A DNA stretch of 64,000 nt from Olsenella sp. An285 (GTDB lineage Bacteria > Actinomycetota > Coriobacteriia > Coriobacteriales > Atopobiaceae). The stretch lies in assembly GCF_002159625.1 (NCBI RefSeq), contig NZ_NFIZ01000012.1:1-64000 (forward strand). The letters run 5' to 3'. This document shows positions 35,923-53,934 of the stretch, piece after piece (the stretch's first letter is position 1; every line of letters begins with the position of its first letter). The notes beneath the pieces are model-generated. The model saw nothing but the letters and a program-made list of their open reading frames with translations, had not been told where the DNA came from and did not search any database. The position numbers and the translations under genes are program-made.

Positions 35923-36257
35923 GCCTTGGGGCCCCGCGTCTCCCCGGATGCGCCCACAGTACAGGGAATCCCGCGCCCGGCACAGAGGCACGCAAGGTCC
36001 GTGAGGTCATAGCGCGCGTCCGCCAGATAATCCCACAGGGAGCCCTCAGGGCCCGCAAAGCCTATCTCCGCCACGACCTCGGACACCGCCTCCGGCGTGA
36101 GCCTAACCGACAGCACGTGGTTCTTCTCGCCAAACGCAACCTGCGCAGAGGGGCCGGAGACCTCCTCGCACAGCACCACGTCATCGCCATCGAGCCCCAC
36201 GAACACCTCGCGCACGTCCCCCGCGCTCTCAAACCCCGCGACCCTCAGCCTCTCCAT
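35919..36257 (-). CDS. Small protein of unknown function behind SOS-box-like sites
   Basis: 112 residues (MERLRVAGFESAGDVREVFVGLDGDDVVLCEEVSGPSAQVAFG...). No motif is recognised. It looks soluble and acidic, with alternating beta/alpha character and a C-terminal YDLTDLACLCAGRGIPC segment with three cysteines. Codon usage matches its neighbours. GGGAGGCATG gives an ATG at 36257 with tight ribosome-site spacing. Two tandem GAAC-N4-GTTC dyads lie 40-66 bases upstream, so damage-inducible expression is a possibility. Confidence 0.65.
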   Translation of the reverse strand: MERLRVAGFESAGDVREVFVGLDGDDVVLCEEVSGPSAQVAFGEKNHVLSVRLTPEAVSEVVAEIGFAGPEGSLWDYLADARYDLTDLACLCAGRGIPCTVGASGETRGPKA

Positions 36258-36296
36258 GCCTCCCGCCTTTCCTCGCTCCGTGGCGACATGATAACA

Positions 36297-36324
36297 GAAC
36301 TTTTGTTCGTAGAACAGTTGTTCT
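36297..36324 (-). promoter_or_regulatory. Two tandem LexA/DinR-box-like dyads
   Basis: GAACTTTTGTTC at 36297-36308 and AGAACAGTTGTTCT at 36311-36324 both fit GAAC-N4-GTTC, the core of the Gram-positive SOS box. Their centres are 15 bp apart. They would overlap a promoter with a -10 near TTATCA (36288-36293 on the minus strand) for the 112-residue gene. Confidence 0.5.
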
Positions 36325-36345
36325 CACAAAAGAAGTACGAGTCGA

Positions 36346-36379
36346 GAAAAAACGGGGCCGTCCCCTCGGACGACCCCGC
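36346..36379 (-). terminator. Intrinsic terminator of serS
   Basis: On the minus strand CGGGGTCGTCC, loop, GGACGGCCCCG, then TTTTTT. About 30 bases beyond the serS stop. Confidence 0.85.
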
Positions 36380-36407
36380 AGCGAGCAGAAGGCATGAGCG
36401 CTGGCCC

Positions 36408-37703
36408 TTACGCCTCCGGGCGAATGACCTCCACGCCGCCCATGTAGGGGCGCAGCGCCTCGGGCACCGTGATGGAGCCGTCGGCGTTCTGGTAGTTCTC
36501 CATGATGGCGGCCATGGTACGGCCAACGGCGAGGCCGGAGCCGTTGAGGGTGTGGACGTAGCGCGTGCCCTTGAACTCGGAGGGGTCCTTGTAGCGGATG
36601 TTGGCGCGACGCGCCTGGAAGTCCCAGCAGTTGGAGCAGGACGAGATCTCCTTGTAGGCGTTGTAGCTGGGCAGCCACACCTCGAGGTCGTAGCACTTGC
36701 ATGCGGAGAAGCCGATGTCGCCGGTGCAGAGCGTGACCACGTGATAGGGCAGCCCCAGGGCCTGGAGCACGGCCTCAGCCTCGGCGACCATGCTCTCGAG
36801 CTGGTTCATCGAGTCCTCGGGCTTGGCGAACTTGACCATCTCCACCTTGTCGAACTGGTGAACGCGGATGATGCCGCGCGTGTCGCGACCGGCGGAGCCC
36901 GCCTCCTCGCGGAAGCACGGGGTGAACGCGGTGTACCAGAGCGGCAGCTGGGAGGCGTCGAGCACCTCGCCGCGGTGGAGGTTGGTGAGCATGACCTCGG
37001 CCGTGGGAATGAGGTAGAGGTCGGGGTTCACGTGATAGAGGTCGTCCTCGAACTTGGGGAGCTGGCCCGTGCCGAAGAGGGTCTCGCGGTTGGTGATGAC
37101 GGGCATCCACCACTCCTTGAAGCCCGCCTTGACGTGCATGTCCACCATGAAGCTGATGAGGGCGCGCTCCATGCGAGCGCCCATGCCGCCCAGCACGTAG
37201 AAGCGGGCGCCGGAGACCTTGACGCCGCGGTCGAAGTCGATCATGCCGGTCTCCGGACCAAGGTCCCAGTGCGCCTTGGGCTCGAAGCCGTCCGCGGAGA
37301 AGTCGCGCGGGGTGCCCCAGCGGCGCACCTCGGGGTTGTCAGAGTCATCCTTGCCATAGGGGACGCTCTCGTGCGGGATGTTGGGGATGCGGGACACCAG
37401 GTCAAAGAGGGCGTCCTCCACCTCGCCGCGACGGGCGTCCAGGTCTGCGATGCGCTCCTTGTTGGCGGCGACGCGCGCCTTGGCGGCCTCGGCCTCGTCC
37501 CTCTTGCCCTCGCGCATGAGCTGGCCGATCTCCTTGGAGACGGAGTTGCGCTCGGCCTGGAGCTTCTCGACCTCGGAGATGACGGAGCGGCGCTCCTCGT
37601 CAAGCTCGAAGAACTTCTCGCGGTCCCAGTGTGCGTTCTGGCGGGACTCGCAGGCCTTGTCCACGACGTCGGGGTTCTCGCGGACGAACTTGATGTCAAG
37701 CAT
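36408..37703 (-). CDS. serS: Seryl-tRNA synthetase
   Basis: 431-residue class II synthetase. N-terminal coiled-coil arm at about 30-100 (EERRSVISEVEKLQAERNSVSKEIGQLMREGKRDEAEAAKARVAANKERI). Motif 2 is FTPCFREEAGSAGRDTRGIIRVHQFDKVEM. Motif 3 is LNGSGLAVGRTMAAIMENYQ. The start is the ATG at 37703 (MLDIKFVRENPD) with TAGGAG six bases upstream. No T-box leader is visible. A shared palindromic -10 region separates it from the divergent small membrane gene. Confidence 0.98.
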   Translation of the reverse strand: MLDIKFVRENPDVVDKACESRQNAHWDREKFFELDEERRSVISEVEKLQAERNSVSKEIGQLMREGKRDEAEAAKARVAANKERIADLDARRGEVEDALFDLVSRIPNIPHESVPYGKDDSDNPEVRRWGTPRDFSADGFEPKAHWDLGPETGMIDFDRGVKVSGARFYVLGGMGARMERALISFMVDMHVKAGFKEWWMPVITNRETLFGTGQLPKFEDDLYHVNPDLYLIPTAEVMLTNLHRGEVLDASQLPLWYTAFTPCFREEAGSAGRDTRGIIRVHQFDKVEMVKFAKPEDSMNQLESMVAEAEAVLQALGLPYHVVTLCTGDIGFSACKCYDLEVWLPSYNAYKEISSCSNCWDFQARRANIRYKDPSEFKGTRYVHTLNGSGLAVGRTMAAIMENYQNADGSITVPEALRPYMGGVEVIRPEA

Positions 37704-37759
37704 GCTTGCTCCTAGCTCTGACTGCGTGCACTTTGCCGGCGCTCGCGCGGCGACCCTCC

Positions 37760-37808: not shown

Positions 37809-38000
37809 ATGCAGGCGATCGGCGACTTCGTAACGTGGCTCTTCAACGACCAGACGGGCGTCCTCGTCCTCATTGCCGGCGGAATCGTGATCTGCCTCAT
37901 CATCGCCCTGCTCATGGAGCGCAAGACCAAGGAGCGCTACTTCAATCACGAGAAGAGCGATGAGGACTGGGACCTCTTCGGGGGAGACGAGGACGAGTAG
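37809..38000 (+). CDS. Small single-pass membrane protein, unknown function
   Basis: 63 residues. MQAIGDFVTWLFNDQTG, one transmembrane helix at about 20-40 (VLVLIAGGIVICLIIALLM), then a basic turn (ERKTKER) and an acidic tail SDEDWDLFGGDEDE. GGGAGG lies upstream of the ATG at 37809. The positive-inside rule predicts the tail is cytoplasmic. Its neighbour, the SLH protein, starts 58 bases later; they may be co-transcribed. Confidence 0.7.
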   Translation: MQAIGDFVTWLFNDQTGVLVLIAGGIVICLIIALLMERKTKERYFNHEKSDEDWDLFGGDEDE

Positions 38001-38058
38001 CCGCTCTCCCCGAGGCCCCGGAGCCGCCGCCCCGGCACCCCAATCGAAAGGTGTTCGC

Positions 38059-39294
38059 ATGAAGTCAAAGGCCCTTCTCGCCCTGACGCTCGCTGCCGCG
38101 CTGGCGGCGCCCGTCCTGGCCCCCGCGACCGCGCTGGCCGACGGCGCCGACCTCGCGGGCGCGCTCGCGGAGCTCGAGGCCGCGGCGCCCGCAGGCACGC
38201 GAGACTCCGAGGGGGAGGTCGACATCGCGTCCCTGACCGAGGGGGCGGACGCGCTCACGCGCGCCGTGTCCCAGCTCGGCGGCGGCGCCGAGCTGCTGGC
38301 AGTCGAGGACTTCTCCGACTGCGACCCCTCCCTGTGGTACGCCGAGTACGTCACCTACGTCTCCGACCACGGAATCATCACGGGTCGCGAGGACGGGACC
38401 TTTGCCCCCGCCGCCAACGTGAGCCGGGCGGACCTCGCGACCATCCTCTGGCGTCTGGCCGGAAAGCCCGCGGTGACGAGCGACGGCTTCCCCGACGTCA
38501 CCAACCCGTCCGCCTACTACTATCAGGCGGCGCTCTGGGCACAGAGTACTGGCGTCGTCGGGGGCGCTACACACGCCGACGGTCTTCTGTACTTCGAGGG
38601 CGAGCGCTCGGTCACGCGCGAGGAGTGCGCCGCGATGCTCGCCCGCTACGCACGACTCTGCGGCCTCAGCACCCTGAGCAACGGAAACGCCCTCAAGGGC
38701 ATACCCGGGTGGGAGAGCTCGAGTGCCTGGGCGCGCGACGACCTTGGCTGGGCCGTTGACAAGGGCCTCGTGAGCGGCAAGCAGAGCGAGTCGGGCCTCG
38801 AGCTCGCCCCTCTCGCCAGCACGGACCGCGCCTCCATCGCAAAGATGATCACCGTGCTCCACCGCGACGTTCTCGGCAGTAGGACTCCCATCTACGACGG
38901 CAGCGACCCCCAGACCGAGGCCGAGAGGTACGTCCTCTCCGGGCTCCAGGCAACCATCGACCTCCTCAACGCGAGCGGCGGGAGCAACGGCACCTGGAGG
39001 ACCTACATCTCCGAGCCCACCCGCCACTGGGGCCGCTCGTTCTTCATCACGCTGCAGACCGACGTCTCGTTCGCCGCGATTCGTGCCGCGTACCACAAGG
39101 GCGGGGAGACGCTCCTGAGGATCGACGAGCTGGCAGAGTCCTTCGACGACCTCTCCGGCACGGTCCGCGACCTCAGCCTCAGCGAGGGCGCCGGACTCGA
39201 CGGGTTTGCCGTCATCTACTCTTCGGACGGCGAGGTCATCCACGCCTCCAGGAACGGCGAGAGCTACGTCCCGTACTGGTACACCCTGGAGTAG
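38059..39294 (+). CDS. Exported S-layer-homology (SLH) domain protein
   Basis: 411 residues. Signal peptide 1-27 (ALLALTLAAALAAPVLAPATALA, AxA cleavage). Three SLH-type modules follow: about 90-145 (WYAEYVTYVSDHGIITGREDGTFAPAANVSRADLATILWRLAG), 153-213 (FPDVTNPSAYYYQAALWAQSTGVVGG...VTREECAAMLARYARL) and 224-280 (SSAWARDDLGWAVDKGLVSG...TDRASIAKMITVLHR). The C-terminal domain (about 290-411) is unknown. SLH modules bind cell-wall polymers, so this is a wall-attached protein. The ATG at 38059 follows GAAAGG. Confidence 0.88.
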   Translation: MKSKALLALTLAAALAAPVLAPATALADGADLAGALAELEAAAPAGTRDSEGEVDIASLTEGADALTRAVSQLGGGAELLAVEDFSDCDPSLWYAEYVTYVSDHGIITGREDGTFAPAANVSRADLATILWRLAGKPAVTSDGFPDVTNPSAYYYQAALWAQSTGVVGGATHADGLLYFEGERSVTREECAAMLARYARLCGLSTLSNGNALKGIPGWESSSAWARDDLGWAVDKGLVSGKQSESGLELAPLASTDRASIAKMITVLHRDVLGSRTPIYDGSDPQTEAERYVLSGLQATIDLLNASGGSNGTWRTYISEPTRHWGRSFFITLQTDVSFAAIRAAYHKGGETLLRIDELAESFDDLSGTVRDLSLSEGAGLDGFAVIYSSDGEVIHASRNGESYVPYWYTLE

Positions 39295-39602: not shown

Positions 39603-41366
39603 GTGAGCACGTCAACGCCACCAGCGTCGCGCGCGAGCGCGCCGCACCAGCAGGGGGGCGCTCCCCGCGACGAGATCCTCCTTGGGAGGTACCGCGTCCT
39701 CGAGCGGAGGGGCACCGGGGGGTTCGGCACCGTCTGCACCTGCTGGGACCTGCGCCTTCAGAGGCGCGTTGCGATAAAGCGCATGCCCATCGTGGACGCC
39801 GCGGCCACCACCACGGCCGAGGAGGCCCTTGCCGAGGCGCGCACCGCCTGCATGCTCGCCCACCCCAACATCGTCACCGTCTACGACTTCGAGTCCGACG
39901 GGACCTACGCCTACCTCGTGATGGAGTACGTCGACGGACTCAACCTCGCGGAGCTCCTCGCTCGCGTAGAGGGCGGCCGCCTCACGCCCGAGGAGTGCGC
40001 CCACGTCCTGGACTCCGTCACCAAGGCCCTGGCCTACGCGCACGAGAACCTCGTCCTCCACCTCGACATCAAGCCCACGAACATCATGGTCGACCGCCGC
40101 GGCGTGGTTAAGCTCGCGGACTTTGGCATGGCAACGCTCGCCTCCGCCGCGGGCTACGGCGGCGCGCGGGGCGGGACCGTCGGCTACATGCCGCCGGAGC
40201 AGATCCAGGGGATGCTTGTGGACGAGCGCGCCGACGTCTTCTCCCTCGCCGTGGTGGTGTGGCAGGCCCTCACCGGGCAGTGTCCCTTCGCCGCGGACTC
40301 CGCGTCCGGCTCGCTCAAGATGATCGAGCGCGGCCCGGCGCGGCCCCTCGGGAAGGACTGCCCCGAGCTCGCCGGCGAGCCCGCGCTCGCCCTCGGCGAG
40401 GCCGTCTCCGCCCACCCGGCAGACCGCCCCGCGGACGTGCGCGACCTCGCGGAGGAGCTCCTGCCCTATCTCGGGGACCCGCGCGACGGCGCCGAGTCGC
40501 TCCGCGAGCTCGTGGAGCAGGCCGAGAAGGACGACGGCTCGCTGGACTCCTCCCGAAACGACGGCCTCCCGCCCCTCCTTGTTCGCATGCCCTGGCTCCC
40601 CGGCGCGGTCGCGCGCTGCCTGACCGCGCTTGCCGTGTTTGCGACGGCGAGGCTCGTCCTCCCCGCGCTCCCCGGGGCAACAGCGCAGTTCGTTGCCGTC
40701 GCCTCTCTCGCGGGCGGCGCGGCCTCGGCGCTCTGGCCGCCCCTCGGGTCCGCCCTCGTGGGCCTCTCCCTCGTGGCTGCCATCGGATGCGCCGGCCCCA
40801 CGCCCGCGTCCTTCCCCCTCGCCCTCCTCCTGGGCGTGGTGCTTGCCGCCTGGTGGGCGCTCGTGGGGAGGCGTGGTCGCCTCACGAGCCTCGCGATGCT
40901 CCTTCCGTGCTGCCTCCCCTCGCCCGTGACGGGAGCCGCCCTCGCCGGCTACGCGCTGCACCCCCTCCCCGCCGCGGCAACGGGCCTGGTGGGCTACGCG
41001 CTCGGGACGCTCTTCCACGCCGCCGTCTCGCAGGGCTTTGTCGCGACGTCCGTGGTGGCGGACCTCGCCGCCCTGGCCGCCGAGCCGCGTCTGTGGGTGG
41101 TCGCGGCGGGCTGCGCGGCGTGCGGTCTCGTGAGCTCCGCCGTCTCCGGCAGGGGCACGGTTGCGGCGGGCGTCCTCGGGCAGGCGCTTGGCCTTGCGTG
41201 CCTTCTGGGCTCTGAGGTTCTCGCAGCTAGAATGGAGAATGACGGTATATGGGCCTCCCTCGACGGAGAGGCGGCCCTCCTTGCGGTACTCTTGTTTGTG
41301 CTTTTGTGCATCGCGACGGCCCTTGGCGGGCCGCTCGTTGAAGATATGGAAGGCGAGGATACGTGA
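39603..41366 (+). CDS. Ser/Thr protein kinase with polytopic membrane domain (non-RD)
   Basis: 587 residues, GTG at 39603 after AAGGAGG. The kinase domain (about 27-290) has a glycine loop RGTGGFGTV, Lys59 in VAIKR, catalytic loop HLDIKPTN (Asp155), DFG at 173-175 and PPEQ in place of APE. Leu replaces Arg in HRD, a non-RD kinase. Residues about 340-570 form roughly eight hydrophobic helices rather than a single helix with PASTA domains. First gene of a coupled run with FhaA, FhaB, PP2C and SEDS-PBP, so it probably acts in wall-synthesis control. The ligand sensed by the membrane domain is unknown. Confidence 0.9.
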   Translation: MSTSTPPASRASAPHQQGGAPRDEILLGRYRVLERRGTGGFGTVCTCWDLRLQRRVAIKRMPIVDAAATTTAEEALAEARTACMLAHPNIVTVYDFESDGTYAYLVMEYVDGLNLAELLARVEGGRLTPEECAHVLDSVTKALAYAHENLVLHLDIKPTNIMVDRRGVVKLADFGMATLASAAGYGGARGGTVGYMPPEQIQGMLVDERADVFSLAVVVWQALTGQCPFAADSASGSLKMIERGPARPLGKDCPELAGEPALALGEAVSAHPADRPADVRDLAEELLPYLGDPRDGAESLRELVEQAEKDDGSLDSSRNDGLPPLLVRMPWLPGAVARCLTALAVFATARLVLPALPGATAQFVAVASLAGGAASALWPPLGSALVGLSLVAAIGCAGPTPASFPLALLLGVVLAAWWALVGRRGRLTSLAMLLPCCLPSPVTGAALAGYALHPLPAAATGLVGYALGTLFHAAVSQGFVATSVVADLAALAAEPRLWVVAAGCAACGLVSSAVSGRGTVAAGVLGQALGLACLLGSEVLAARMENDGIWASLDGEAALLAVLLFVLLCIATALGGPLVEDMEGEDT

Positions 41367-41367
41367 C

Positions 41368-42501
41368 ATGAGCTTCCTCAGTGATTTCGAGGGGCGCATA
41401 GGCTCCGTGTTCGGGGCGGCCCCCCAGGGATACACCGAGCCCTTCTCCTTCAAGAAGCTTGCCAAGCGCGCTGCGCGCGAGATGGAGAACGAGACCTACG
41501 AGATCGACGGCGTTGACACCGCGCCGGCGCTCTACACCGTGCTCGTCTCCGCCTCAGACGACTCCCTCATGCGCCCCCTCTACGAGCAGATCACCTACGA
41601 GGTCTCCGCCTTCGTGACCGCCCAGGCGCAGAAGCGCGGCTATGCCTTCGTGGGCAGCCCCCTCGTGCGCTTCATGGTGGACCCCTCCCTGAGGTCCGGG
41701 AAGTTCGCCGTGTTTGCCGAGAACGTGGACGCCCGCACCCTCACGCGCCTTCGCGAGGAGGAGCGCGCCTTCCTGGCGGGAAGCTCGAGCTCGGGCGGGG
41801 CCGCCGCGCAGATCAACCGTCGACCCTCCGCGCCCACGCCGAGGCAGTCCCTCGACGGCGCGGACCGCGGCCCCGCGCGGTCCCAGGCCGAGCCCGCGGC
41901 CGCCTCGGGCACCGACGCCGGGCTTGACGTCATGCCCTCCGACTTTGACGCGGCGCCCGCATCCGTGGCCGCCGCCTCCGAGTCCACCCCCATGCCCATT
42001 CCCATGGCGTCCGACACGCCGCTGGTGGCTCCCTCGGGCAAGCATGCAGCCGTTCCCGTGCCGCAGACCCAGCGTCGCAGCGTGCCCCTCGTGGACGTGA
42101 GGAGAGGCGTCGGCGCCGAGGCCGTGGCCGGCGTGGCAACCGCCGGCTCTCCCATCGCCGCCGCCATGGACTCCGTCCCCCAGCAGGCGCGCGGGGTCGA
42201 GGACGACTACGCCTCCTGCCTGCTCATCGACCGGCAGACCGGCAGGACCTTCACCGCAAAGGCCCCGTCCACGGTCATCGGCCGCGAGCGCTCCAAGGCC
42301 GGCATCGTCCTGCGCGACCCCAATGTCTCCCGCGCCCACGCCGAGCTCTCCTTCGACGGCCGCGACTGGCGCATCACCGACCTCAACTCCACCAACGGCA
42401 CGCTCGTCAACGACGTGGACATCCACGAGTGCGCGCTTCGCGACGGCGACCTGATCACCCTCGGCCTCGTGAACCTTGAGTTCAGGGAGAACCGCCGATG
42501 A
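41368..42501 (+). CDS. fhaA: FhaA-like protein (DUF3662 plus FHA domain)
   Basis: 377 residues. The N-terminal DUF3662 domain (about 1-130: FLSDFEGRIGSVFGAAPQGYTEPFSFKKLAKRAAREMEN) is followed by a long Ala/Pro/Ser-rich linker (about 145-280). The C-terminal FHA domain (about 285-377) has VIGRERSKAGIVLRDPNVSRAHAELSFDGRDWRITDLNSTNGTLVND. FHA domains bind phosphothreonine; in mycobacteria FhaA links PknB signalling to peptidoglycan precursor flipping. It starts one base after the kinase stop and overlaps FhaB by ATGA. Confidence 0.93.
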   Translation: MSFLSDFEGRIGSVFGAAPQGYTEPFSFKKLAKRAAREMENETYEIDGVDTAPALYTVLVSASDDSLMRPLYEQITYEVSAFVTAQAQKRGYAFVGSPLVRFMVDPSLRSGKFAVFAENVDARTLTRLREEERAFLAGSSSSGGAAAQINRRPSAPTPRQSLDGADRGPARSQAEPAAASGTDAGLDVMPSDFDAAPASVAAASESTPMPIPMASDTPLVAPSGKHAAVPVPQTQRRSVPLVDVRRGVGAEAVAGVATAGSPIAAAMDSVPQQARGVEDDYASCLLIDRQTGRTFTAKAPSTVIGRERSKAGIVLRDPNVSRAHAELSFDGRDWRITDLNSTNGTLVNDVDIHECALRDGDLITLGLVNLEFRENRR

Positions 42502-42911
42502 TCGACCTCGTCCTGTTTGCGGGACGCGTCCTTCTTGTCGTCGTCCTCTACATCTTCCTCTTTGCCGTCATGCGCTCGGGCGTGGGGCTCGTGCGCGGGC
42601 AGCGCCGGGACGCCGCCATCTGGTCGGTCGACGTCGAGAAGGGCACGCGCTCGCTTCGCGGCCTGCACGTCGACATCCTCGGCCCCGTCGTCATAGGGCG
42701 CTCCCCCTCCTCCGACATCGTCATCGACGAGCCGTACGTCTCGTCCTCCCACGCGCGCTTCACGCTCCAGGGCCCCGCCCTCGTGCTCGAGGACCTTGGC
42801 TCCACCAACGGCACCATGGTCAACGGCCACCCCATCGACCAACCGGTCACCCTGAGGGAGGCTGACGAGGTCCAGGTGGGCGACACCATCATGAGGGTGA
42901 GCCGCGGATGA
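42498..42911 (+). CDS. fhaB: FhaB/FipA-like membrane-anchored FHA protein
   Basis: 137 residues. One N-terminal transmembrane helix (about 4-27), a basic linker, and an FHA domain (about 60-137: VVIGRSPSSDIVIDEPYVSSSHARFTLQGPALVLEDLGSTNGTMVNGHPI). In actinobacteria this protein is part of the kinase/division cluster. ATGA overlaps at both ends (42498 and 42908) show tight translational coupling with FhaA and the phosphatase. Confidence 0.93.
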   Translation: MIDLVLFAGRVLLVVVLYIFLFAVMRSGVGLVRGQRRDAAIWSVDVEKGTRSLRGLHVDILGPVVIGRSPSSDIVIDEPYVSSSHARFTLQGPALVLEDLGSTNGTMVNGHPIDQPVTLREADEVQVGDTIMRVSRG

Positions 42912-44182
42912 CGACCGAGGAGCTTCAGGTCACGTCCGTCGAGGAGCCCGTCAACGCCCCCGGACGCGCCGAGATGCCCGTCGAGGGCCGCGCGGGCGCA
43001 GACGCCGTCTCCGGCGCCAACGAGTTCATCTCGTGGGGCGCCCGCAGCGACGTGGGCCTCGTGCGCGGTCACAACGAGGACTCCTTCCTCCTGAGGGCAC
43101 CGCTCTTCGTGGTCTCCGACGGCATGGGCGGACACGCCGCCGGCGAGGTCGCCAGCTCCATCGCCGTGGAGACCGTGGGCGAGCTCGCCCCCGGCACGGC
43201 TGACGACGTTCTTCTTGGCGCGGCCGTCGAGGCCGCCAACAAGGCCGTCATCAGGGGTGCCGAGGAGGGAATCGGCAAGCCCGGCATGGGCTGCACCGCG
43301 ACCTCCGTCCTTATCGAGAAGAACCACGTTGCCGTGGCACACGTGGGAGACTCGCGCGTCTACCTGCTCCGTCAGGGAACGCTCGTGCGCATAACGCACG
43401 ACCACTCCTACGTGGAGGAGCTCGTGGACTCCGGCCAGATCACCGCCGACGAGGCGCGCACGCACCCCTCGCGCTCCATCATCACCCGCGCCCTGGGGTC
43501 TGACCCGGACATGTACGCGGACCACTTCACCCTCGAGGTCAACACCGGGGACCGTCTCATCCTGTGCTCCGACGGCCTCTCCGGCATGATTCCCGACAGC
43601 GAGATCGAGTCCCTCGCCGTCTCCAGCGCCACGCCCCAGCAGGCGGCCGACAACCTCGTGGCCGCTGCCCTCACGGCAGGCGGCGCGGACAACGTGACCG
43701 TGGTCGTGGTCGACGTGCTGAACGACGGCCTTGCGGCAGAGGCGCGCAAGAGGCTCGCCCGAGGCGCGGCCTTCGTGACCGGCGTCATAGCCGCCATGCT
43801 CGCCGTCGTGGCGCTCATCTCCTTCGCCTTCATCCGGAGCGAGTGGTACCTCGCCGCCAACGGGGACACCGTCGCCATCTATCGCGGCATCAACGGCAGC
43901 TTCCTCGGCATTCCCCTGAACGAGCTCGTGGGGACGAGCGCCGTCGAGGTGAGCGACCTGCCCGCCGCCATACAGGACCAGCTCAAGGCCGGAATCCGCG
44001 TGCAGAACGAGGACGCTGCCTTCGAGACCATAGACTCCTACCACCGCCAGATCGACGCCGAGGCCGAGCGCGCGGCGCAGATTGCCGAGGAGGCAACTGC
44101 CGGCAGCTCTCAGGACGGCGAGGCGGCTGACGGCGCCCAGGCCGAGAGCCCGGAAGAGACGGCAGCGGAAGGGGGCGAGTAG
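42908..44182 (+). CDS. PP2C-family Ser/Thr phosphatase, membrane-anchored (PstP-like)
   Basis: 424 residues. PP2C domain (about 40-272) with metal ligands in [20 protein letters not shown] (Asp71), [19 protein letters not shown] and ADNVTVVVV. One transmembrane helix at about 287-309, then an extracellular domain of about 75 residues ([31 protein letters not shown]) and an acidic Gln/Glu/Ala-rich tail. It is expected to dephosphorylate the two kinases and FHA-bound substrates. Overlaps FhaB by four bases; the SEDS-PBP GTG begins one base after its stop. Confidence 0.94.
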
Positions 44183-44183
44183 C

Positions 44184-47156
44184 GTGGCATTTCGCAAGAG
44201 AAGATACTCCGGCGGGCAGTCCCGCGCGACCGTTGAGGCCATGGCCTCCTCGTCCTTCTCGCCCGTCGGGGAGCGCGAGCGCGGCCTCTCGAGGCGCAAC
44301 GCCGAGCTCTTCCTGCTCTTCCTGGCCGCGATCCCGGTGCTTCTGCTCTACGCGCTCTACGTGGTCAACTCCGGCGTGGCGCTCTCCGCGTCCACCCTGG
44401 CGGTCCCCCTCGGGCTCCTGGGCGCGTTCGCGGCGGCGCACGTTGCCATCCGCTTCCTCGCGCCAGCTGCCGATCCGGCCATCCTCCCCATAGTCTTTGC
44501 CCTCTCGGGCACGGGCATCACCTTCCTCACGAGGCTCGCCCCGGCGCTCGCGATCAACCAGGTGGTGTGGCTCTTCGTCTCCGTCTGCGCGATGGTGGCG
44601 GTGCTCGCCGTGGTGCGCAACCTCGACAGGCTTGCCGGCTTCAAGTACACCCTCGGGCTCGTGGGCATCGTCCTCCTGGTGCTGCCCATGCTCGTGGGCA
44701 CCGAGCGCGGCGGGTCCAAGCTCTGGGTCTACATAGGCGGCTTTGGCTTCCAGCCCGGCGAGTTCGCCAAGATCGCGCTCGTGCTCTTCCTCGCGTTCTA
44801 CCTGGCCGCCAACAGGGAGGCCCTCTCCGCCTCCATGCACCGGTTTGGCCCCTTTAGCCTGCCGCGCCTGCGCATGCTGCTCCCCCTCTTCGTGATGTGG
44901 GGCGTGAGCCTGCTCGTGGTGGTCTTCGAGACGGACCTCGGCAGCGCTCTCCTCTTCTTCACGTTCTTCCTCATCATGCTCTACGTCGCCACCGGACGAG
45001 CAAGCTACGTCGTCGTGAGCCTCCTGCTCCTGGCCGTGGGCGGAGTTGCGTGCTACGGCCTCTTCGGCCACGTCCAGACGCGCGTGAACATCTGGATCGA
45101 CCCTTGGGCCGACGCCTCGGGCGGCGGCTACCAGATCGTGCAGTCGCTCTACTCGCTCGCCGACGGCGGGCTCGTGGGAACGGGCGTCGGCAAGGGCCTC
45201 GCGACCCTTATCCCCGTGGTCGAGTCCGACTTCATCTTCTCGGCGATAGGCGAGGAGATGGGTCTTCTGGGCTCCTCCGCCATCCTGATGCTCTACCTGC
45301 TCCTGTGCGTGCGCGGCCTCGCCACCGCGGCTCGGGCCAAGTCCGACACCTCCGCCTTTGCCGCCGTGGGCCTCACGAGCGCCCTCGTGTTCCAGGCCTT
45401 CCTCATCGTGGGAGGCGTCACCAAGCTGCTGCCGCTCACGGGCGTGACCCTGCCCTTCATGAGCCAGGGCGGCACCTCGCTGCTCGCCTGCTTCATCATC
45501 GTGGGCCTGCTCCTGCGCGCTGGCGACGAGGGCACGGGGCATGGCGCCGAGATGGCAAGCGGCCTCGCGGGCGGCGAGAAGAACGTGGACCCGGTGCTCT
45601 CCCTCACGGGGAAGATCGGCTCCGCAGGCCCCCGCGCCGGCTCGGTCGTGCGCGGCAGCCACGCGCGCGGAAGGTTCTCCCTTCAGACGGCCGAGTCCGG
45701 CCTTCTGGGCCGCGTTGCGCTGGGCAAGCGCCTGACGAATCTCATCACGGTCTTCGCCGTGCTCTTTGCCGTGCTCATCGCCAACCTCACGTACGTGATG
45801 GAGGTCGACGCCCAGCGCATCAGGGACCTCCCCACCAACAACCACACCATCGCCAGGAGCGCCTACGTCCAGCGCGGCGCCATCATCACCTCCGACGGCG
45901 TCACCCTCGCGGAGAGCATCCAGCAGGCCGACGGCACCTACGCGCGCTCCTACCCCCAGGGCAGCCTCGCGCAGCACACGGTGGGCTACGTCTCCACGCA
46001 GTACGGCAGCTCCGGCGTCGAGGCCACCATGAACGACACCCTCACGGGCCATGCGGACTACTCCAACTGGAGAAGCGCGCTCTTCTCGCTCGCCGGTGTC
46101 CAGCAGGCCGGCTCGACCGTCGCCCTCACCATCAACTCCCAGATCCAGCGGGCGGCAGAGGAGGCCCTGCGCGGCTACACCGGCGCGATCGTGATCCTCG
46201 ACCCCAAGACGGGAGCGGTTCTGGCCAAGGCCTCGAGCCCCACCTACACGGTCGACGAGCTCGATACCGTCATGGCCTCCGGCTCGGGCGGCGAGCTCCT
46301 GGACCGCGCGACGCAGGCCCTCTACGCACCTGGCTCCACGTTCAAGGCGCTCACCCTCTCCGCCGCGCTCGACTCCGATACCACGGAGCTCGACCGCACT
46401 TACGACGCCAACTCCCCCATTGAGATTGGCGGCGGGGAGCTCACCAACTACGGCGGGGACTCCTACGGTGAGCTCAGCCTCGCGGATGCCTTCGCGCTCT
46501 CGTCCAACACCGCCTTTGGGCAGGTGGGCGTCGAGGTTGGCGCGAGCACGCTCGTGAGCTACGCCAACGCCTTTGGCTACGGCCGGAACGTGGGCCAGGA
46601 CTTTGCCACCATGGCGTCCCTCATGCCCTCCGCCTCCGAGATGACGGAGTGGGAGACGGCATGGGCCGCCTGCGGGCAGCCCGTGGGCCAGCACGAGAGT
46701 CCCGCCGGCCCCCAGACCACCGTCATGCAGAACGCGATGGTGGCGCAGGCGATCGCCAACGGCGGCGTGGTCATGGACCCCTACGTCGTTGACCACGTGC
46801 TCTCTCCGGAGGGCGTCGTCACCTCTACCACCCAGCCGCGCTCCCTCGGCCAGGCCATCTCCGCAGAGACCGCGGAGCAGGTGAAGGGCGCCATGCTCGA
46901 CGTTGTCGACCACGGGACCGGCGTCGCCGCCCAGGTCTACGGGGTCCAGGTGGCCGGCAAGACCGGCACGGCCGAGGTCGAGAACGGAAACGTCAACTCG
47001 CTCTTCATCGGCTTTGCCCCCTACGACAACCCGACCCTCGTGGTCTCCGTCTGCGTTGAGGGCAACGGGACCGACGTCGAGGGCCTGGCGGCATCGCTGG
47101 CAGGACAGGCGCTCAGCCGGGCGCTTGCCGTCCAGACGGCAGGAGCCGGCGGATGA
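44184..47156 (+). CDS. SEDS glycosyltransferase fused to class B penicillin-binding protein
   Basis: 990 residues in one frame, GTG at 44184. Residues about 38-445 form a RodA/FtsW (SEDS) domain with about ten helices, the probable catalytic Asp251 (FETDLGS), the block [11 protein letters not shown], and [10 protein letters not shown] roughly 65-residue linker and another helix (about 517-540) lead into a class B PBP. Its transpeptidase motifs are S718TFK721, S773SN775 and K926TGT929. Normally rodA and pbpA are separate neighbouring genes in this actinobacterial cluster. The fusion places polymerase and crosslinker in a 1:1 chain. The upstream phosphatase and FHA genes and the downstream PASTA kinase imply phospho-control. 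Confidence 0.95.
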
Positions 47157-47265: not shown

Positions 47266-49362
47266 ATGCCAGGGATGATTCTCGGCGGGCGCTACCAGGT
47301 TCAGGACAAGATCGGAACGGGCGGCATGGCCACCGTGTTCCGTGGTCTTGACGAGGTGCTCGGCCGGACCGTCGCCATCAAGACGATGCTGCCGCAGTAT
47401 GCGAGCGACCCATCCTTCGCCGCGCGCTTCAAGCAGGAGGCACAGGCTGCCGCAGCCCTCCAGAGCCCCTACATCGTGAGCGTCTACGACTGGGGCAAGG
47501 ACGCGGACACCTACTACATCGTCATGGAGTACCTGCGCGGCACCGACCTCAAGAGCGGCATCCGCAAGCACGGCGCGCTCGACTGCAAGAAGGTCGCGCA
47601 GATCGGCTCGCAGATCGCGCAGGCGCTCTCCGTGGCCCACAAGCACGACATCATCCACCGCGACATCAAGCCGCAGAACATCATGGTGCAGCCCGACGGC
47701 AACATCAAGGTGATGGACTTCGGCATCGCGCGCGCCAAGAACAGCCACCTCACCCAGGACAACTCCGTCCTGGGCACGGCGCACTACGTCTCGCCCGAGC
47801 AGACGCAGGGCAAGGCGCTCGGCCCCACCACGGACATCTACTCCCTCGGCATCGTGATGTACGAGGCCGCCACGGGGCAGGTCCCCTTCCAAGGCGACGA
47901 CGCCATCTCCGTGGCCCTCAAGCAGGTGAACGAGCAGCCCAAGCCGCCGAGCCAACTCAACCCCGCGGTCGACCCGGCGCTCGAGGCCATCATCCTCAAG
48001 TGCATGCAGAAGAGCCCGGCAGACCGCTTCCAGACGGCAGACGAGCTTCACCGTACCCTGAGGGACTACCTCGCCGGGCGCGTGCAGGCCGTCAACAACG
48101 CCACGGCCCTGCTGCCCACCAACAAGATAGAGAGCGGCACCGGCGTCCAGCCCGTGAAGGGCGGCACCGCCTCCATGCCCCGGGTCGAGCGCACCAACCG
48201 CTATCGCCCGCAGAGCGCCACGGAGCAGGCGGCGGAGATGGAGGCGGAGCGCGAGCGAAAGCACCGTCGCAACGTCATCCTTGGCGCCATCGGGGCGGTG
48301 GCGCTCATCGCCGCGATCGTGTTTGCCGCCTTCTCCGCCTTTGGCTCCAGCGCGGCAGAGAAGGCCGTACCCAGCCTCGTGGGCATGATGCAGGATGACG
48401 CCATAGCCACCATCCGCGAGGAGGGATTCGAGGTGGGCACCGTCGACCCCGTGGCGAGTGACCGTCCCGAGGGCGAGGTCATCGACCAGTCCCCCTCCGC
48501 CACGAGCATGAGGCCCGAGGGCACGAGGATCAACCTCATCGTCTCCAAGGGCGCTGAGACCGCAACGGAGGTCGAGGTCCCCGACCTCAAGAACCTCTCG
48601 CCCGAAGATGCCGAGGCGCGGCTCCTGGAGCGTCAGCTCATCCCCCAGAAGGGCGAGGACCAGGCGAGCGACGAGGTGGAGGCCGGCAAGGTCTGCGGCC
48701 AGGACACCGCCGCCGGCGAGAAGGTCGAGGCGGGCACCACCATCACCTACCACGTCTCCACCGGCGCCGACGCCGTGGCCGTGCCCGACGTCATCGGCGA
48801 TGACCAGAACACCGCGCGCGACCGCCTCTCCAACGGCGACGGCCAGTTCGTCGTCACCGTTGAGCACGAGTACTCGAGCTCCGTTGCCGAGGGCCGCGTC
48901 TGCCGCGTGGAGCCCGGGGTGGGCACGACCCTCGAGAAGGGCTCTGCGGTCACCATCTACGTCTCCGACGGACCCCAGCCCGTCCAGCAGGTCACGGTGT
49001 ACGACGTCAGAAATTGGCCATATGCCGACGCCAAGGCCACGCTCGAGCTCTACGGATTCAAGGTGACCCTTGGGTCCGGCCCCGCCGACGGCGTTGTGAC
49101 CTATCAGTCGGTCTCCGGCTCCGCCCCGTACGGCTCCGAGATCGTGCTTACCACCGAGCCCAGCCACTCCGGCGGCGGCACGGACTACGGCAACGGCGGC
49201 AGCGGCACAGGCACCGGCACGGGTACGGGAACGAATACTGGAGATTCCGGAAACGGCGGGCAGACCGGCAACGAGGGCACCGGTGAGACCACCGGCGACA
49301 ACGGCTCGAGCCAGACCGGTAGCGGCGCCTCGACCGCCGGGAACGGCGCCTACACCAACTAG
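47266..49362 (+). CDS. pknB: PASTA-domain Ser/Thr kinase (PknB/PrkC type)
   Basis: 698 residues. Kinase domain 8-270 with GTGGMATVFRG, Lys39, HRD (131-133) IKPQN, DFG at 151-153, GTAHYVSPEQ. TM helix about 336-360. Four PASTA repeats follow: about 365-428, 435-499, 503-568 and 572-632. The tail at 633-698 is Gly/Thr/Asn-rich with GTGTGTGTGT. PASTA domains bind muropeptides or lipid II. The ATG at 47266 follows AGGAGA. The gap of 109 bases from the SEDS-PBP gene is the largest in the run and contains GC-rich palindromic sequence but no clear promoter. Confidence 0.97.
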   Translation: MPGMILGGRYQVQDKIGTGGMATVFRGLDEVLGRTVAIKTMLPQYASDPSFAARFKQEAQAAAALQSPYIVSVYDWGKDADTYYIVMEYLRGTDLKSGIRKHGALDCKKVAQIGSQIAQALSVAHKHDIIHRDIKPQNIMVQPDGNIKVMDFGIARAKNSHLTQDNSVLGTAHYVSPEQTQGKALGPTTDIYSLGIVMYEAATGQVPFQGDDAISVALKQVNEQPKPPSQLNPAVDPALEAIILKCMQKSPADRFQTADELHRTLRDYLAGRVQAVNNATALLPTNKIESGTGVQPVKGGTASMPRVERTNRYRPQSATEQAAEMEAERERKHRRNVILGAIGAVALIAAIVFAAFSAFGSSAAEKAVPSLVGMMQDDAIATIREEGFEVGTVDPVASDRPEGEVIDQSPSATSMRPEGTRINLIVSKGAETATEVEVPDLKNLSPEDAEARLLERQLIPQKGEDQASDEVEAGKVCGQDTAAGEKVEAGTTITYHVSTGADAVAVPDVIGDDQNTARDRLSNGDGQFVVTVEHEYSSSVAEGRVCRVEPGVGTTLEKGSAVTIYVSDGPQPVQQVTVYDVRNWPYADAKATLELYGFKVTLGSGPADGVVTYQSVSGSAPYGSEIVLTTEPSHSGGGTDYGNGGSGTGTGTGTGTNTGDSGNGGQTGNEGTGETTGDNGSSQTGSGASTAGNGAYTN

Positions 49363-49677: not shown

Positions 49678-49720
49678 AGCGGGTCATCGGGGGAGACAAG
49701 CCCGATGACCCGCTGTTTTT
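49678..49720. terminator. Bidirectional terminator beside tRNA-Arg(CCT)
   Basis: 14-bp stem AGCGGGTCATCGGG with CCCGATGACCCGCT. Plus-strand GTTTTT follows; on the minus strand TTTCTGTT follows. It lies immediately 3' of the minus-strand tRNA. Confidence 0.85.
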
Positions 49721-49721
49721 C

Positions 49722-49797
49722 TGGTGCCCCCGGGCCGATTCGAACGGCCGACACCCGCTTTAGGAGAGCGGTGCTCTATCCCCTGAGCTACGAAGGC
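49722..49797 (-). tRNA. tRNA-Arg (anticodon CCT)
   Basis: 76 nt with encoded CCA. Acceptor GCCTTCG with CGGGGGC (two G-U pairs); anticodon stem CCGCT/AGCGG with loop CTCCTAA; T-arm CGGCCGTTCGAATCGGCCC. Confidence 0.95.
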
Positions 49798-49807
49798 GTG
49801 AAACCAC

Positions 49808-49835
49808 ATTCTAGCACCACAGGGGTGCCCGGCAA
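49808..49835 (-). promoter_or_regulatory. Promoter of tRNA-Arg(CCT)
   Basis: Minus-strand -35 TTGCCG (49835-49830), 16-base spacer, -10 TAGAAT (49813-49808). The -35 falls close to the stop of the upstream membrane-protein gene. Confidence 0.7.
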
Positions 49836-49839
49836 AACC

Positions 49840-50487
49840 CTACTTCTTCTCGTTCTTCTCGGTACCCTTGCCCTTCTTGGCGAGCTCGCCGGCACGGGCG
49901 TCCTCGAGGAGCTGCGCGAGCTTCTTGTCGGACAGGCCGCGCACGCGAGCCTCGGCCTCCTTGCGGAAGGGGCGACGCTTGGCAAGGTCGTAGATGAACG
50001 AGGCAATGATGAAGGCATAGGCCAGGACGAGCGAGGCCACGGAGACGAGGCCCTGCCAGGTGGAGACGTCCATCGTCTGGCCGAACATGCCAGCGCACAC
50101 GAGCGAGATCACGGCAAGGAGCATGCCCACGCCAAGGAGGCCCCAGAAGAACTTCTCGGTCTTGCGGTAGCCGGGGATGCTGCGCATCATGATGTCGTAG
50201 GCGCGGTTGCGAAGGTCCTGCTCCTCGCGCTCGCGACGCTTGCGCTCCTTCTTCTCCTCCTTGGTCTCGACCGTGTTGCCGAAGGCGTCCTTCTGCTTGG
50301 TCTTACCAGCGGTCCTCACGGAGGAGCCCGCCTCGCGGGCAGGCTTGGCCTTGGCGGTGGAGCTCCTCACGAAGCCCTTCTTCTCCTCCTCGCCGGCCCC
50401 GATGGCCTCGGCCTCCTTCTTGGGGCGGCCGACGACGTTGCCCTCGGCCTCGCGTCGGGCCCCCTCGATGGTGTCTCGCAGTGACAT
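49840..50487 (-). CDS. Membrane protein of unknown function, charged N-terminal domain
   Basis: 215 residues. Residues 1-95 are Lys/Glu/Arg-rich and likely disordered to coiled coil (TKEEKKERKRREREEQDLRNRAYD). Two transmembrane helices follow at about 113-133 and 143-165, then a charged C-terminus (LSDKKLAQLLEDARAGELAKKGKGTEKNEKK). No family is recognised. It starts nine bases after the purC stop, so it is probably co-transcribed; no link to purine synthesis is apparent. Confidence 0.75.
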   Translation of the reverse strand: MSLRDTIEGARREAEGNVVGRPKKEAEAIGAGEEEKKGFVRSSTAKAKPAREAGSSVRTAGKTKQKDAFGNTVETKEEKKERKRREREEQDLRNRAYDIMMRSIPGYRKTEKFFWGLLGVGMLLAVISLVCAGMFGQTMDVSTWQGLVSVASLVLAYAFIIASFIYDLAKRRPFRKEAEARVRGLSDKKLAQLLEDARAGELAKKGKGTEKNEKK

Positions 50488-51516: not shown

Positions 51517-51574
51517 GTTCTTCTCGCCGCGAGTTCTTTGCGCAGCAAAGCTGTTTGAGCACGGCGAGAAGAAC
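51517..51574 (-). terminator. Hairpin after the histidine kinase gene
   Basis: GTTCTTCTCGCCG (51517-51529) and CGGCGAGAAGAAC (51562-51574) pair as a 13-bp stem. The 32-base loop has its own CTTTGC/GCAAAG hairpin. It lies 22 bases past the kinase stop, with no T-run. The arms are copies of the recurrent GTTCTTCTCG motif. Confidence 0.4.
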
Positions 51575-51596
51575 CGTCGGCTCGCGGCCAGAGCGC

Positions 51597-53111
51597 CTAC
51601 TTGTCCTGCGACTTGCGTGCCTGCCGCTGGGGAATGCGCAGCGTGAAGGTGGTGCCGCGGCCAAGCTCGGACTCCACGAGGATGGTGCCGTTGTGGCGGT
51701 CGATGATCTCTTTGGTGATGGCCAGGCCCACGCCCAGGCCCCCGGAGACGCGCTCGCGGCTCACGTCGGAGCGCCAGAAGCGCGAGAAGGTCTGCGGGAT
51801 GTCCTCCTTGGCGATGCCGATGCCGGTGTCCTGGACCGAGACGAGCACGTCCGAGCGGTCCTGCCGCAGGGAGACCTTCACCCAGCCGTCCTCGTTGGTG
51901 TAGCGCATCGCGTTGCTCATGAGGTTGACCACGGCCTCGCGGATGAGGTCGGGATCGACGTCGGCATAGAGCTCACCATGGGGGGTCTCGTCCACGAAGC
52001 GCAGGTGCAGGCCCTTCTCGTGGAAGAGCTGGTGCTGGGAGGAGACGAGCGTCTTCACGAGGTAGACCATGTCCGTGTGCTCGCACTTGAGCTCGGTGGT
52101 ACCGTTCTCCAGGCGGGAGAGCTTGAGCATGGCGTCGATGAGGCGGGAGAGGCGGCGCACCTCGACGGCCACGACCTCGAGGTGCTCGTCATCTGCGGGC
52201 AGGACGCCGTCCTGCATGGCCTCGACCGTGGCCTGCATGGCCATGAGCGGGGTACGCAGCTCGTGCGCCACGTCACCCGTGAGGCGGTGCTCGAGCTTGA
52301 TGTCGCGCTCGATCGTGGTGGCCATGTCGTCGAAGGTCTCGCCGAGCTGGCCGATCTCGTCCTCGCCCGTCACGCCCGTGCGGGCGGTGAGGTCACCGTT
52401 TCTGATCTGCTTGGCCGTGGAGGTGATGCGCTGGATCGGCTCTGCCATCCAGCGGGAGACGAAGTAGCCTATCACGCAGGCGAGGATCGCCGCGATTGCC
52501 GCCGCGGTGACGATGGCGCCGTACGAGTTGGAGCGAAACGACGCGTCCGTCTTGGTGAGCAGCGCCTCGGAGCCAAAGGCCCACATGCGCACGCTGCCCA
52601 CGACGCTTCCGTCGCGGGCGAGGATGGGCGAGGCGACGAGGTCCTCCGCCGCGGTGGGCGGGGACGACGAGGTGGGGCCGCCGACGGTTCCGTCGGACCT
52701 CCCCGGGCGCGCCCAGGTGTCGTCATAGAGGACCTTGCCGTCGGCGTCCAGAACCTGGACCACAATGTCCGAGGAGATAGAGGACGTGGCAGCAGCGGCG
52801 GAGTCAGCGGCCTCGTCGAGGTCCCCCGTCACCGCATAGGCGTCCGAGATGTTGGCAGCGGTCGAGTCCGCGATGGACTGCATGTTTTGCCGCGTGTAGG
52901 CCATGAACTGGCCCTCCCACACCACGGCGAGAACGACGGCGAGCACCGCCGCCGTCATGATGGCGGTGAGCGCGCAGACGAGCGTGAGGCTCGTGGAGAA
53001 CGGGCGGCCCCCCTTGGGGACGGGCCGGATGGTGTTCCACGAGCCGCGAGAGGACGACCCTTCCGAGCCGCCCTCCTCGGCGCTCTTTCCTATGACGAAG
53101 CGCGCCGACAC
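51597..53111 (-). CDS. Two-component sensor histidine kinase (HAMP, HisKA)
   Basis: 504 residues. TM helices about 40-65 and 198-219 flank an extracellular domain of about 130 residues. HAMP at 220-272; HisKA with His283 in GDVAHELRTPL; ATPase motifs NLMSNAMRYTNED, VQDTGIGIAKED and GGLGVGLAITKEII. An N-terminal 38-residue cytoplasmic tail is Ser/Gly-rich. A GTG at 53111, nine bases after the response-regulator stop, is chosen, though its ribosome site is weak. The signal and regulon are unknown. Confidence 0.92.
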   Translation of the reverse strand: MSARFVIGKSAEEGGSEGSSSRGSWNTIRPVPKGGRPFSTSLTLVCALTAIMTAAVLAVVLAVVWEGQFMAYTRQNMQSIADSTAANISDAYAVTGDLDEAADSAAAATSSISSDIVVQVLDADGKVLYDDTWARPGRSDGTVGGPTSSSPPTAAEDLVASPILARDGSVVGSVRMWAFGSEALLTKTDASFRSNSYGAIVTAAAIAAILACVIGYFVSRWMAEPIQRITSTAKQIRNGDLTARTGVTGEDEIGQLGETFDDMATTIERDIKLEHRLTGDVAHELRTPLMAMQATVEAMQDGVLPADDEHLEVVAVEVRRLSRLIDAMLKLSRLENGTTELKCEHTDMVYLVKTLVSSQHQLFHEKGLHLRFVDETPHGELYADVDPDLIREAVVNLMSNAMRYTNEDGWVKVSLRQDRSDVLVSVQDTGIGIAKEDIPQTFSRFWRSDVSRERVSGGLGVGLAITKEIIDRHNGTILVESELGRGTTFTLRIPQRQARKSQDK

Positions 53112-53120
53112 GCGAGGCGC

Positions 53121-53843
53121 CTAGCGGGAGCCGCCGTCGGCCGCCTTCTCCGAGGCCTCGAAGCGGTAGCCGACCCCGTGCACGGTGTAGAGCCAGCGCG
53201 GGTTGCGCGGGTCGTCGCCCAGCTTGGCGCGCAAGTTCTTGACGTGGGAGTCAATCGTGCGCTCGTAGCCCTCGAAGTCGTAGCCGAGGACCTTCTCAAC
53301 GAGCTCCATGCGCGTGTAGACGCGGCCGGGATAGCGGGCGAGCGTGGTGAGGAGCTTGAACTCGGAGGCCGTGAGGTCAACCTCCCTGCCCTCAACGAGC
53401 ACCTTGTGGCCGGAGATGTCGATGACCAGGTCGCCGAAGTCGAGGACCTCGAGCTGGGGCTCGGCCTCGGTGTGGGCGCGGCGCAGGAGGGCGCGCACGC
53501 GGGCGACGAGCTCTCGCGGCGAGAAGGGCTTGATGAGGTAGTCGTCGGCACCGAGCTCGAGGCCGATGATCCTGTCCTCGACCTCGCCCTTTGCCGTGAG
53601 CATGATGATGGGCACGTTGGAGGTCTCGCGAATCGCGCGGCACACACGCTCGCCCGAGAGCTTGGGGAGCATCAGGTCAAGGATGACGAGGTCGAACGTG
53701 TGCTTCTCGAACTCCTCGACCGCGCTCTGGCCGTCGCCGACCCCTCGCACAATGTAGCTCTCGCGCTCGAGGTATGCCGCAACGGCGTCGCGGATGGCCT
53801 TCTCGTCCTCAACCAGCAGGATCTTCTTCTCGTCCGAAGCCAT
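53121..53843 (-). CDS. OmpR/PhoB-family response regulator
   Basis: 240 residues. Receiver domain 1-120 with acidic pocket LVEDE, phospho-acceptor Asp56 (VILDLMLPKLSG) and Lys in LTAKGE. Winged-helix DNA-binding domain about 135-230 (DLTASEFKLLTTLARYPGRVYTRMELVEKVLGYDFEGYERTIDSHVKNLRAKLGDD). AAGGAGG precedes the ATG. First gene of a response regulator-kinase pair. An upstream TTGAAT/TACACT on the minus strand (about 53934-53905, long spacer) may be its promoter. Confidence 0.95.
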   Translation of the reverse strand: MASDEKKILLVEDEKAIRDAVAAYLERESYIVRGVGDGQSAVEEFEKHTFDLVILDLMLPKLSGERVCRAIRETSNVPIIMLTAKGEVEDRIIGLELGADDYLIKPFSPRELVARVRALLRRAHTEAEPQLEVLDFGDLVIDISGHKVLVEGREVDLTASEFKLLTTLARYPGRVYTRMELVEKVLGYDFEGYERTIDSHVKNLRAKLGDDPRNPRWLYTVHGVGYRFEASEKAADGGSR

Positions 53844-53934
53844 GGGCGGCCTCCTTGTGTGTTTTCAGCTTCACCGAAAAAACAGGTTCGTGGGTATACC
53901 TAGTGTACCCCACCGAGCCGCGCTCAATTCAACT

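Follow-up and report, generated by a model that had tools for sequence, protein, structure and literature searches.

RodA-type enzymes, which build peptidoglycan strands, and PbpA-type class B penicillin-binding proteins (bPBPs), which link them, are normally two separate proteins. Class A PBPs hold a polymerase and a crosslinker in one chain, the polymerase there being a Transgly (GT51) domain. In mycobacteria, rodA and pbpA are described as separate genes that are co-transcribed with pstP (PMC6554272). Lifelong pairing of a SEDS protein with its bPBP is hard to test against partner swapping, and the structural work reported so far in the sources cited here has used artificial fusions (PMC6207328, PMC10449877). 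These engineered Escherichia coli RodA-PBP2 chains, joined by short Gly-Ser linkers (GGGSx3 and TSGSGSGS), are reported to restore rod shape largely, to be active in vitro, and to have served for cryo-electron microscopy (PMC6207328, PMC10449877); a change in the PBP2 pedestal still stimulates RodA within them, and a minor fraction of the fusions is cleaved (PMC6207328).

Here, we describe a gene of Olsenella sp. An285 whose product is very probably a natural single-chain SEDS-bPBP peptidoglycan synthase. The window analyzed was a stretch of 64,000 nucleotides (contig NZ_NFIZ01000012.1, positions 1 to 64,000). The gene has the same order as the engineered fusions, SEDS and then bPBP, but whereas those were made in the laboratory with E. 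coli PBP2, this one is natural, PbpA-type, and conserved. It shares its cluster genes and domains with actinobacterial RodA and PbpA encoded beside pstP and pknB, for example those of Mycobacterium (PMC6554272), but these are encoded by two genes and lack the linker anchors described below. Its polymerase is a SEDS protein rather than a Transgly domain, and it represents a route to the coupling seen in class A PBPs that is independent of theirs.

The components and the cluster are already known, as are the C-terminal halves of orthologues in the PDB. Those of Atopobium parvulum (4JBF, 4N1X, 4QJG, 4R0Q, 4R1G, 4R23, 4R3J, and 4RA7; 64 to 65% identity in the aligned part) and Eggerthella lenta (4MNR; 49% in the aligned part) were crystallized in 2013 and 2014, several with beta-lactams according to their titles. 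The entries cover the transpeptidase half only, and their titles, which make no mention of a SEDS half, read (putative) "peptidoglycan glycosyltransferase". The residue numbers of the A. parvulum crystals, 523 to 953, imply that the parent protein is a fusion, and this suggests that the beta-lactam structures of the 4JBF series show half of a larger enzyme. We found no paper that names a natural SEDS-bPBP fusion from Coriobacteriia in a search that left out most subscription papers, which does not imply absence from print. Within the material searched, a fusion ancestral to the class, its restriction to one of the three SEDS-bPBP pairs in this genome, and two conserved linker anchors look new.

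The fusion gene, its cluster, and the other synthases of the genome

An earlier note on this DNA, written from the letters alone, had read one SEDS-bPBP fusion in a single frame, and that reading held: the frame stays open for 990 residues without an internal stop, and both halves score above their Pfam gathering thresholds. FTSW_RODA_SPOVE (PF01098) matched the first half at 3.1e-74 (250.5 bits against a gathering score of 26.4), and PBP_dimer_2 (5.9e-22; 78.2 bits against a cut-off of 27) and the transpeptidase domain (8.1e-54, above its gathering score) matched the second (Table 1). Among the 25 listed of the 28 matching NCBIfam models (ftsW, rodA, pbp2, spoVD, and others), each match was partial and fell below the model's own cut-off. 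The note was also right about the motif positions, which are D251 (FETD251LGSA), PGEFAKI at residues 191 to 197, MSQGGTS at 426 to 432, S718TFK, S773SN, and K926TGT; we take D251 to be the catalytic aspartate of the SEDS extracellular loop. Across the 179 rows of an alignment built from 178 distinct sequences, in which the window protein appears twice, D251, S718, K721, S773, N775, K926, and G928 were invariant (179/179), and it follows that neither half is decaying.

The second half has the features of a PbpA-type class B PBP, namely, the SxxK, SxN, and KTG motifs, a PBP_dimer_2 domain, and a location in an FHA-PstP-RodA-PbpA-PknB cluster. The Transgly (GT51) domain (PF00912) had no Pfam match in the fusion protein at 0.001, so the protein is not a class A PBP. 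Where a two-chain complex of the RodA-PBP type is encoded by two separate genes, here there is one frame and no stop. The PbpA half superimposes on Mycobacterium tuberculosis PbpA (3upo) over 407 aligned residues with a Z score of 49.7 and an rmsd of 2.0, and 3un7 matches it by sequence. The Foldseek and VIA-align matches listed are filled by the transpeptidase half, with the SEDS half barely represented among them; by sequence, the SEDS half matches RodA and FtsW chains.

The start codon of the fusion is uncertain, with two candidates (Table 1), and the alignment of many relatives to the fusion begins only at about residue 27 to 36. Separate translation of PbpA from an internal start was considered and found to be unsupported, as no start signal stands out in the linker: the linkers of 9 of 119 genes had an in-frame start codon preceded by a Shine-Dalgarno-like match of at least 5 nt, compared with 96 of 714 control windows taken within PbpA and 76 of 119 RodA start regions.

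Table 1. Coordinates of the fusion gene, its parts, and its neighbors in the window
Feature	Position	Strand	Details
Ser/Thr kinase, first of cluster	39603..41366	+	Pfam
FhaA-like protein (FhaA_N + FHA)	41161..42501	+	Pfam; true start probably later than ORF start
FhaB/FipA-like FHA protein	42498..42911	+	Pfam; NCBIfam FhaB model below its cut-off
PstP (Stp1-type PP2C phosphatase)	42908..44182	+	Pfam, NCBIfam
rodA-pbpA fusion gene	44184..47156	+	990 aa; start GTG 44184 or ATG 44241
RodA/SEDS half	44286..45527	+	Residues 35-448; Pfam PF01098 at 101-446; 12 long helices predicted (AlphaFold2 helix list)
Catalytic Asp D251 (presumed)	44934-44936	+	Present in 179/179 alignment rows
First linker anchor, D-x-x-T451-G	45525..45539	+	Residues 448-452; T451 97%, G452 98% of 179 rows
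Variable linker, long form, with GSHARGRF and T502	45537..45698	+	Residues 452-505; predicted disordered, pLDDT <50
Second linker anchor, juxtamembrane, 12 residues	45699..45734	+	Residues 506-517; predicted extension of PbpA transmembrane helix
PbpA transmembrane helix	45732..45806	+	Residues 517-541; inside AlphaFold2 helix 506-541
PBP_dimer_2 (PbpA-type pedestal) domain	45873..46121	+	Residues 564-646; Pfam
Transpeptidase domain	46182..47075	+	Residues 667-964; Pfam
Transpeptidase motifs	S718xxK 46335-46346; SSN 46500-46508; KTG 46959-46967	+	Motif residues in 179/179 rows
PknB-type PASTA kinase, 4 PASTA stretches	47266..49362	+	Pfam, NCBIfam

A kinase, FhaA, FhaB, and PstP precede the fusion, and PknB follows it; this is the actinobacterial pstP cluster. 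Placement among kinase, FHA, and phosphatase genes, with two adjacent genes in relatives, was thus as previously claimed, the relatives outside the class being split. The neighbors are kept in those of 40 class regions that extend far enough to show them (PstP and FhaB, 34/34 each; FhaA, 31/34; the first kinase, 30/34; PknB, 38/38). A protein with an SLH (S-layer homology) domain, at 37960-39294, adjoins the cluster. Three long frames beside it (35709-37715, 49705-50484, and 51555-53903) had no Pfam match at 0.001 and may be chance frames.

The genome holds three SEDS and four transpeptidase matches, the fusion included. An unfused bPBP-SEDS pair, whose members were called PBP2 and RodA for their position, follows MreB and MreC. 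A further bPBP and SEDS protein, likewise called FtsI and FtsW for their position, stand apart from each other in one region with a Mur ligase, and the fourth transpeptidase match belongs to a class A PBP with a Transgly (GT51) domain. PBP_dimer_2 rises above its cut-off of 27 only in the fusion, the two other class B PBPs scoring 22.1 and 23.9. The check proposed in the earlier note, that no separate cognate rodA or pbpA exists in the genome, came out positive in part: there is no second PbpA-type protein among the three other transpeptidases, but there are two other complete SEDS-bPBP pairs. Since these two conventional two-gene pairs have been kept, the fusion is a third SEDS-bPBP synthase, and the pair of the kinase cluster is the only one fused in this genome. 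With a fixed pairing next to two unfused pairs in the same cell, the question of partner exchange becomes testable.

Distribution and origin of the fusion

We read the junction on the DNA at 219 Coriobacteriia loci, a redundant set in which some genomes are repeated and which reduces to 178 distinct closed sequences, and found both halves in one frame at 218 of them. The sampling covers at least 120 genomes from 74 genera in 22 families, together with 80 named contigs that possibly repeat some of these genomes. The sole exception (L131, genome G255; again as L361) is a single assembly in which the junction is intact and a frameshift lies further on, inside PbpA. An intact frame at 218 of 219 loci is neither chance nor assembly error. 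Twenty further regions, 15 of them chosen because their search row showed a stop, gave 17 intact junctions (one of which, L360, is a contig-edge piece that begins at residue 300), two contig-edge halves of genome G094 in which the junction is not visible, and G255 again. When the 15 stop-flagged genomes (L342 to L356) were read again, no stop was found between RodA residue 35 to 39 and the end of the PbpA match, and the same held for further flagged genomes included in the set of 219 loci.

A search of 296 class genomes gave matches in 294 at 1e-30, paralogue matches included. Of 80 class genomes from outside the three large families, 68 gave a match at 1e-45, and 67 of these have both halves in one open frame, the other (G093) showing residues 34 to 270 only. 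The remaining 12 of the 80 had no match to the fusion at 1e-45, and four of them are at least 90% complete (G065, G069, G101, and G131); thus, the fusion gene is not universal in the class and may have been lost in some lineages. In 58 of the 60 genomes of family f2, a single frame spans the junction and holds both halves; of the other two, G297 has no close match and G259 has the RodA half only.

Open frames of more than 1,300 amino acids in several genomes were checked for triple fusions. PknB was in the same frame in none of 40 class regions and 80 named loci. Collinsella phocaeensis (L213, again as L114), where PstP, RodA, and PbpA share an open frame of 1,625 codons, is the only species in those regions and loci with PstP in the fusion frame. 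The 3′ end of its pstP looks frameshifted in a short repeat, so either a triple fusion or an error could account for the long frame, and we do not claim the former.

In the other classes of the phylum, the two genes were separate at all 89 loci at which both halves were seen. These come from 91 loci examined in two samples: 40/40 were split in the first, 20 of which had been picked as the likeliest fusions for their long or equal open frames, and 49/51 in the second, the remaining two lacking one half. By handle, the 89 split loci represent 88 genomes, G369 being counted twice. At split loci, the RodA frame is closed by a stop, and PbpA lies out of continuous frame, often overlapping or abutting RodA. 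A plasmid search for other natural fusions matched 25 records, and H4 to H6, the rows with both halves annotated, are two products each.

In trees built from 51 fused loci and 40 split ones, the fused proteins group as a single clade (support of 0.906 for RodA, 0.814 for PbpA, and 0.985 for the two joined), which is most simply explained by one fusion event no later than the base of the class. The domain order and the tree thus bear out what the earlier note had proposed to look for across Coriobacteriia, and they point to a single ancient fusion that probably arose in the ancestor of the class and has since been kept. The natural fusion is confined to one cluster and is maintained across a class to which gut genera, Collinsella and Olsenella among them, belong.

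Predicted arrangement and working of the tethered synthase

AlphaFold2, run with 81 sequences, gave a model of the fusion protein with a mean pLDDT of 82.4 and a pTM of 0.64, in which residues 452 to 505 fall below 50 and the second linker anchor forms a single helix with the PbpA membrane segment, prolonging it inward. Because the long helices of the RodA half are even in number, the linker should lie on the same side of the membrane as the N terminus, the cytosolic side. The C terminus of RodA and the N terminus of PbpA would then both be cytosolic, and a cytosolic linker could join the two proteins without a topological problem. Coevolution was weak overall: the RodA-PbpA pairs L325-V538 and L322-Y537 ranked 1 and 4, and 65 of the 100 best pairs fall in the transpeptidase domain, about what background would give for a domain that makes up 225 of 357 columns. 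The two RodA-PbpA pairs would fit a contact between a RodA loop helix and the membrane helix at its outer end.

In the single-chain synthase, as predicted from its sequence, the RodA half would polymerize lipid II by means of D251, and the transpeptidase, by means of S718, would crosslink the new strand. The PbpA transmembrane helix would pack in cis against the RodA of the same chain, which the pedestal would activate. Fusion would guarantee equal synthesis and pre-paired assembly of the two halves and would limit exchange with the two other SEDS-bPBP pairs. Activity would still be gated by the conformation of the pedestal and probably also by the neighboring PASTA kinase, PstP, and FHA proteins, which the earlier note had conjectured to be the necessary source of control. 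The 1:1 ratio that had been proposed for the fusion stands for synthesis, provided that the one-chain product stays uncleaved, but the accompanying proposal of a constitutive complex finds no support in the engineered E. coli fusions. Since these are reported to remain open to stimulation through the pedestal (PMC6207328), a tether alone does not fix an "on" state, and covalent joining is not the same as constitutive activity. For structural and in vitro work, the fused chain offers a ready-made stoichiometric synthase.

The linker and alternative readings of the fusion

Between its two anchors the linker is variable, and its length (447 to 517) is two-humped, with 26 to 34 amino acids in 75 of the 179 rows and 42 to 103 in the other 104. 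In the second anchor, L508, G509, and R510 are each conserved in 99% of the 179 rows and R516 is conserved in 98%, and its LGRx[AS]L pattern was found before the PbpA helix in 0 of 89 split loci. The 11-residue stretch to which the earlier note had drawn attention does lie in the linker, at residues 490 to 500; RGSHARGRF belongs to the long form only and is missing from the 75 short-linker rows. Within the 104 long-linker rows, H493 is conserved in 79%, R495 and T502 in 88% each, E504 in 99%, and S505 in 100%.

The earlier note had suggested that the linker may be a phospho- or FHA-contacted hinge. In such a phospho-switch, PknB would phosphorylate Thr451 and/or Thr502, FhaA or FhaB would bind the phosphothreonine, and PstP would reverse the mark, so that the tethered synthase is gated. 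T451 is nearly invariant in the fused rows (Table 1), T502 and E504 are well conserved where the linker is long, the FHA, phosphatase, and kinase genes stay beside the fusion in the class regions counted above, and D-x-x-T-G follows RodA in 0 of 89 split loci. However, 95% of the 75 short-linker rows have a gap at position 502, and a Thr near position 451 is found in 17 of the 89 split RodA tails, so that a Thr at this place does not set the fusion apart; the idea that the first anchor is wholly new was rejected on the same count. Moreover, a conserved residue need not be phosphorylated, and one close to a membrane may be kept for structural reasons; the partners named for mycobacterial FhaA in the literature consulted are MviN and CwlM, not RodA. 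We regard the switch as doubtful. In the fullest form of the proposal, Coriobacteriia would have a dedicated third synthase, apart from the MreB-linked and division pairs, that is an obligate single chain with the linker as its control point: the neighboring PASTA kinase would phosphorylate Thr451 (and Thr502 in long-linker families), the neighboring FHA proteins would recognize the mark, and the neighboring phosphatase would remove it. We consider this form unlikely.

The same disordered linker could instead be a site of cleavage after membrane insertion, which would make the fusion a biosynthetic convenience and the working complex an ordinary one of two chains. Its predicted disorder and very variable length, 26 to 103 residues, agree with this, as does the report that a minor fraction of the engineered RodA-PBP2 fusions is cut (PMC6207328). 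Yet two conserved anchors flank the variable part, and no gene fission was seen at the readable junctions of the class, although fission should be easy were the chain cut anyway; we consider cleavage quite improbable and favor a synthase that works as one chain. An artefact of assembly, or a frameshift, that merges two ordinary genes, which the overlapping or abutting genes of relatives outside the class might bring to mind, has a negligible probability in view of the same frame in assemblies from 22 families, the conserved anchors between the halves, and a crystal numbering in A. parvulum that is consistent with a fused parent chain. Among the split loci, the RodA tails of L261, L275, L277, and L281 share a T-x-EILIGGR-like ending, possibly a conserved tail element of another lineage.
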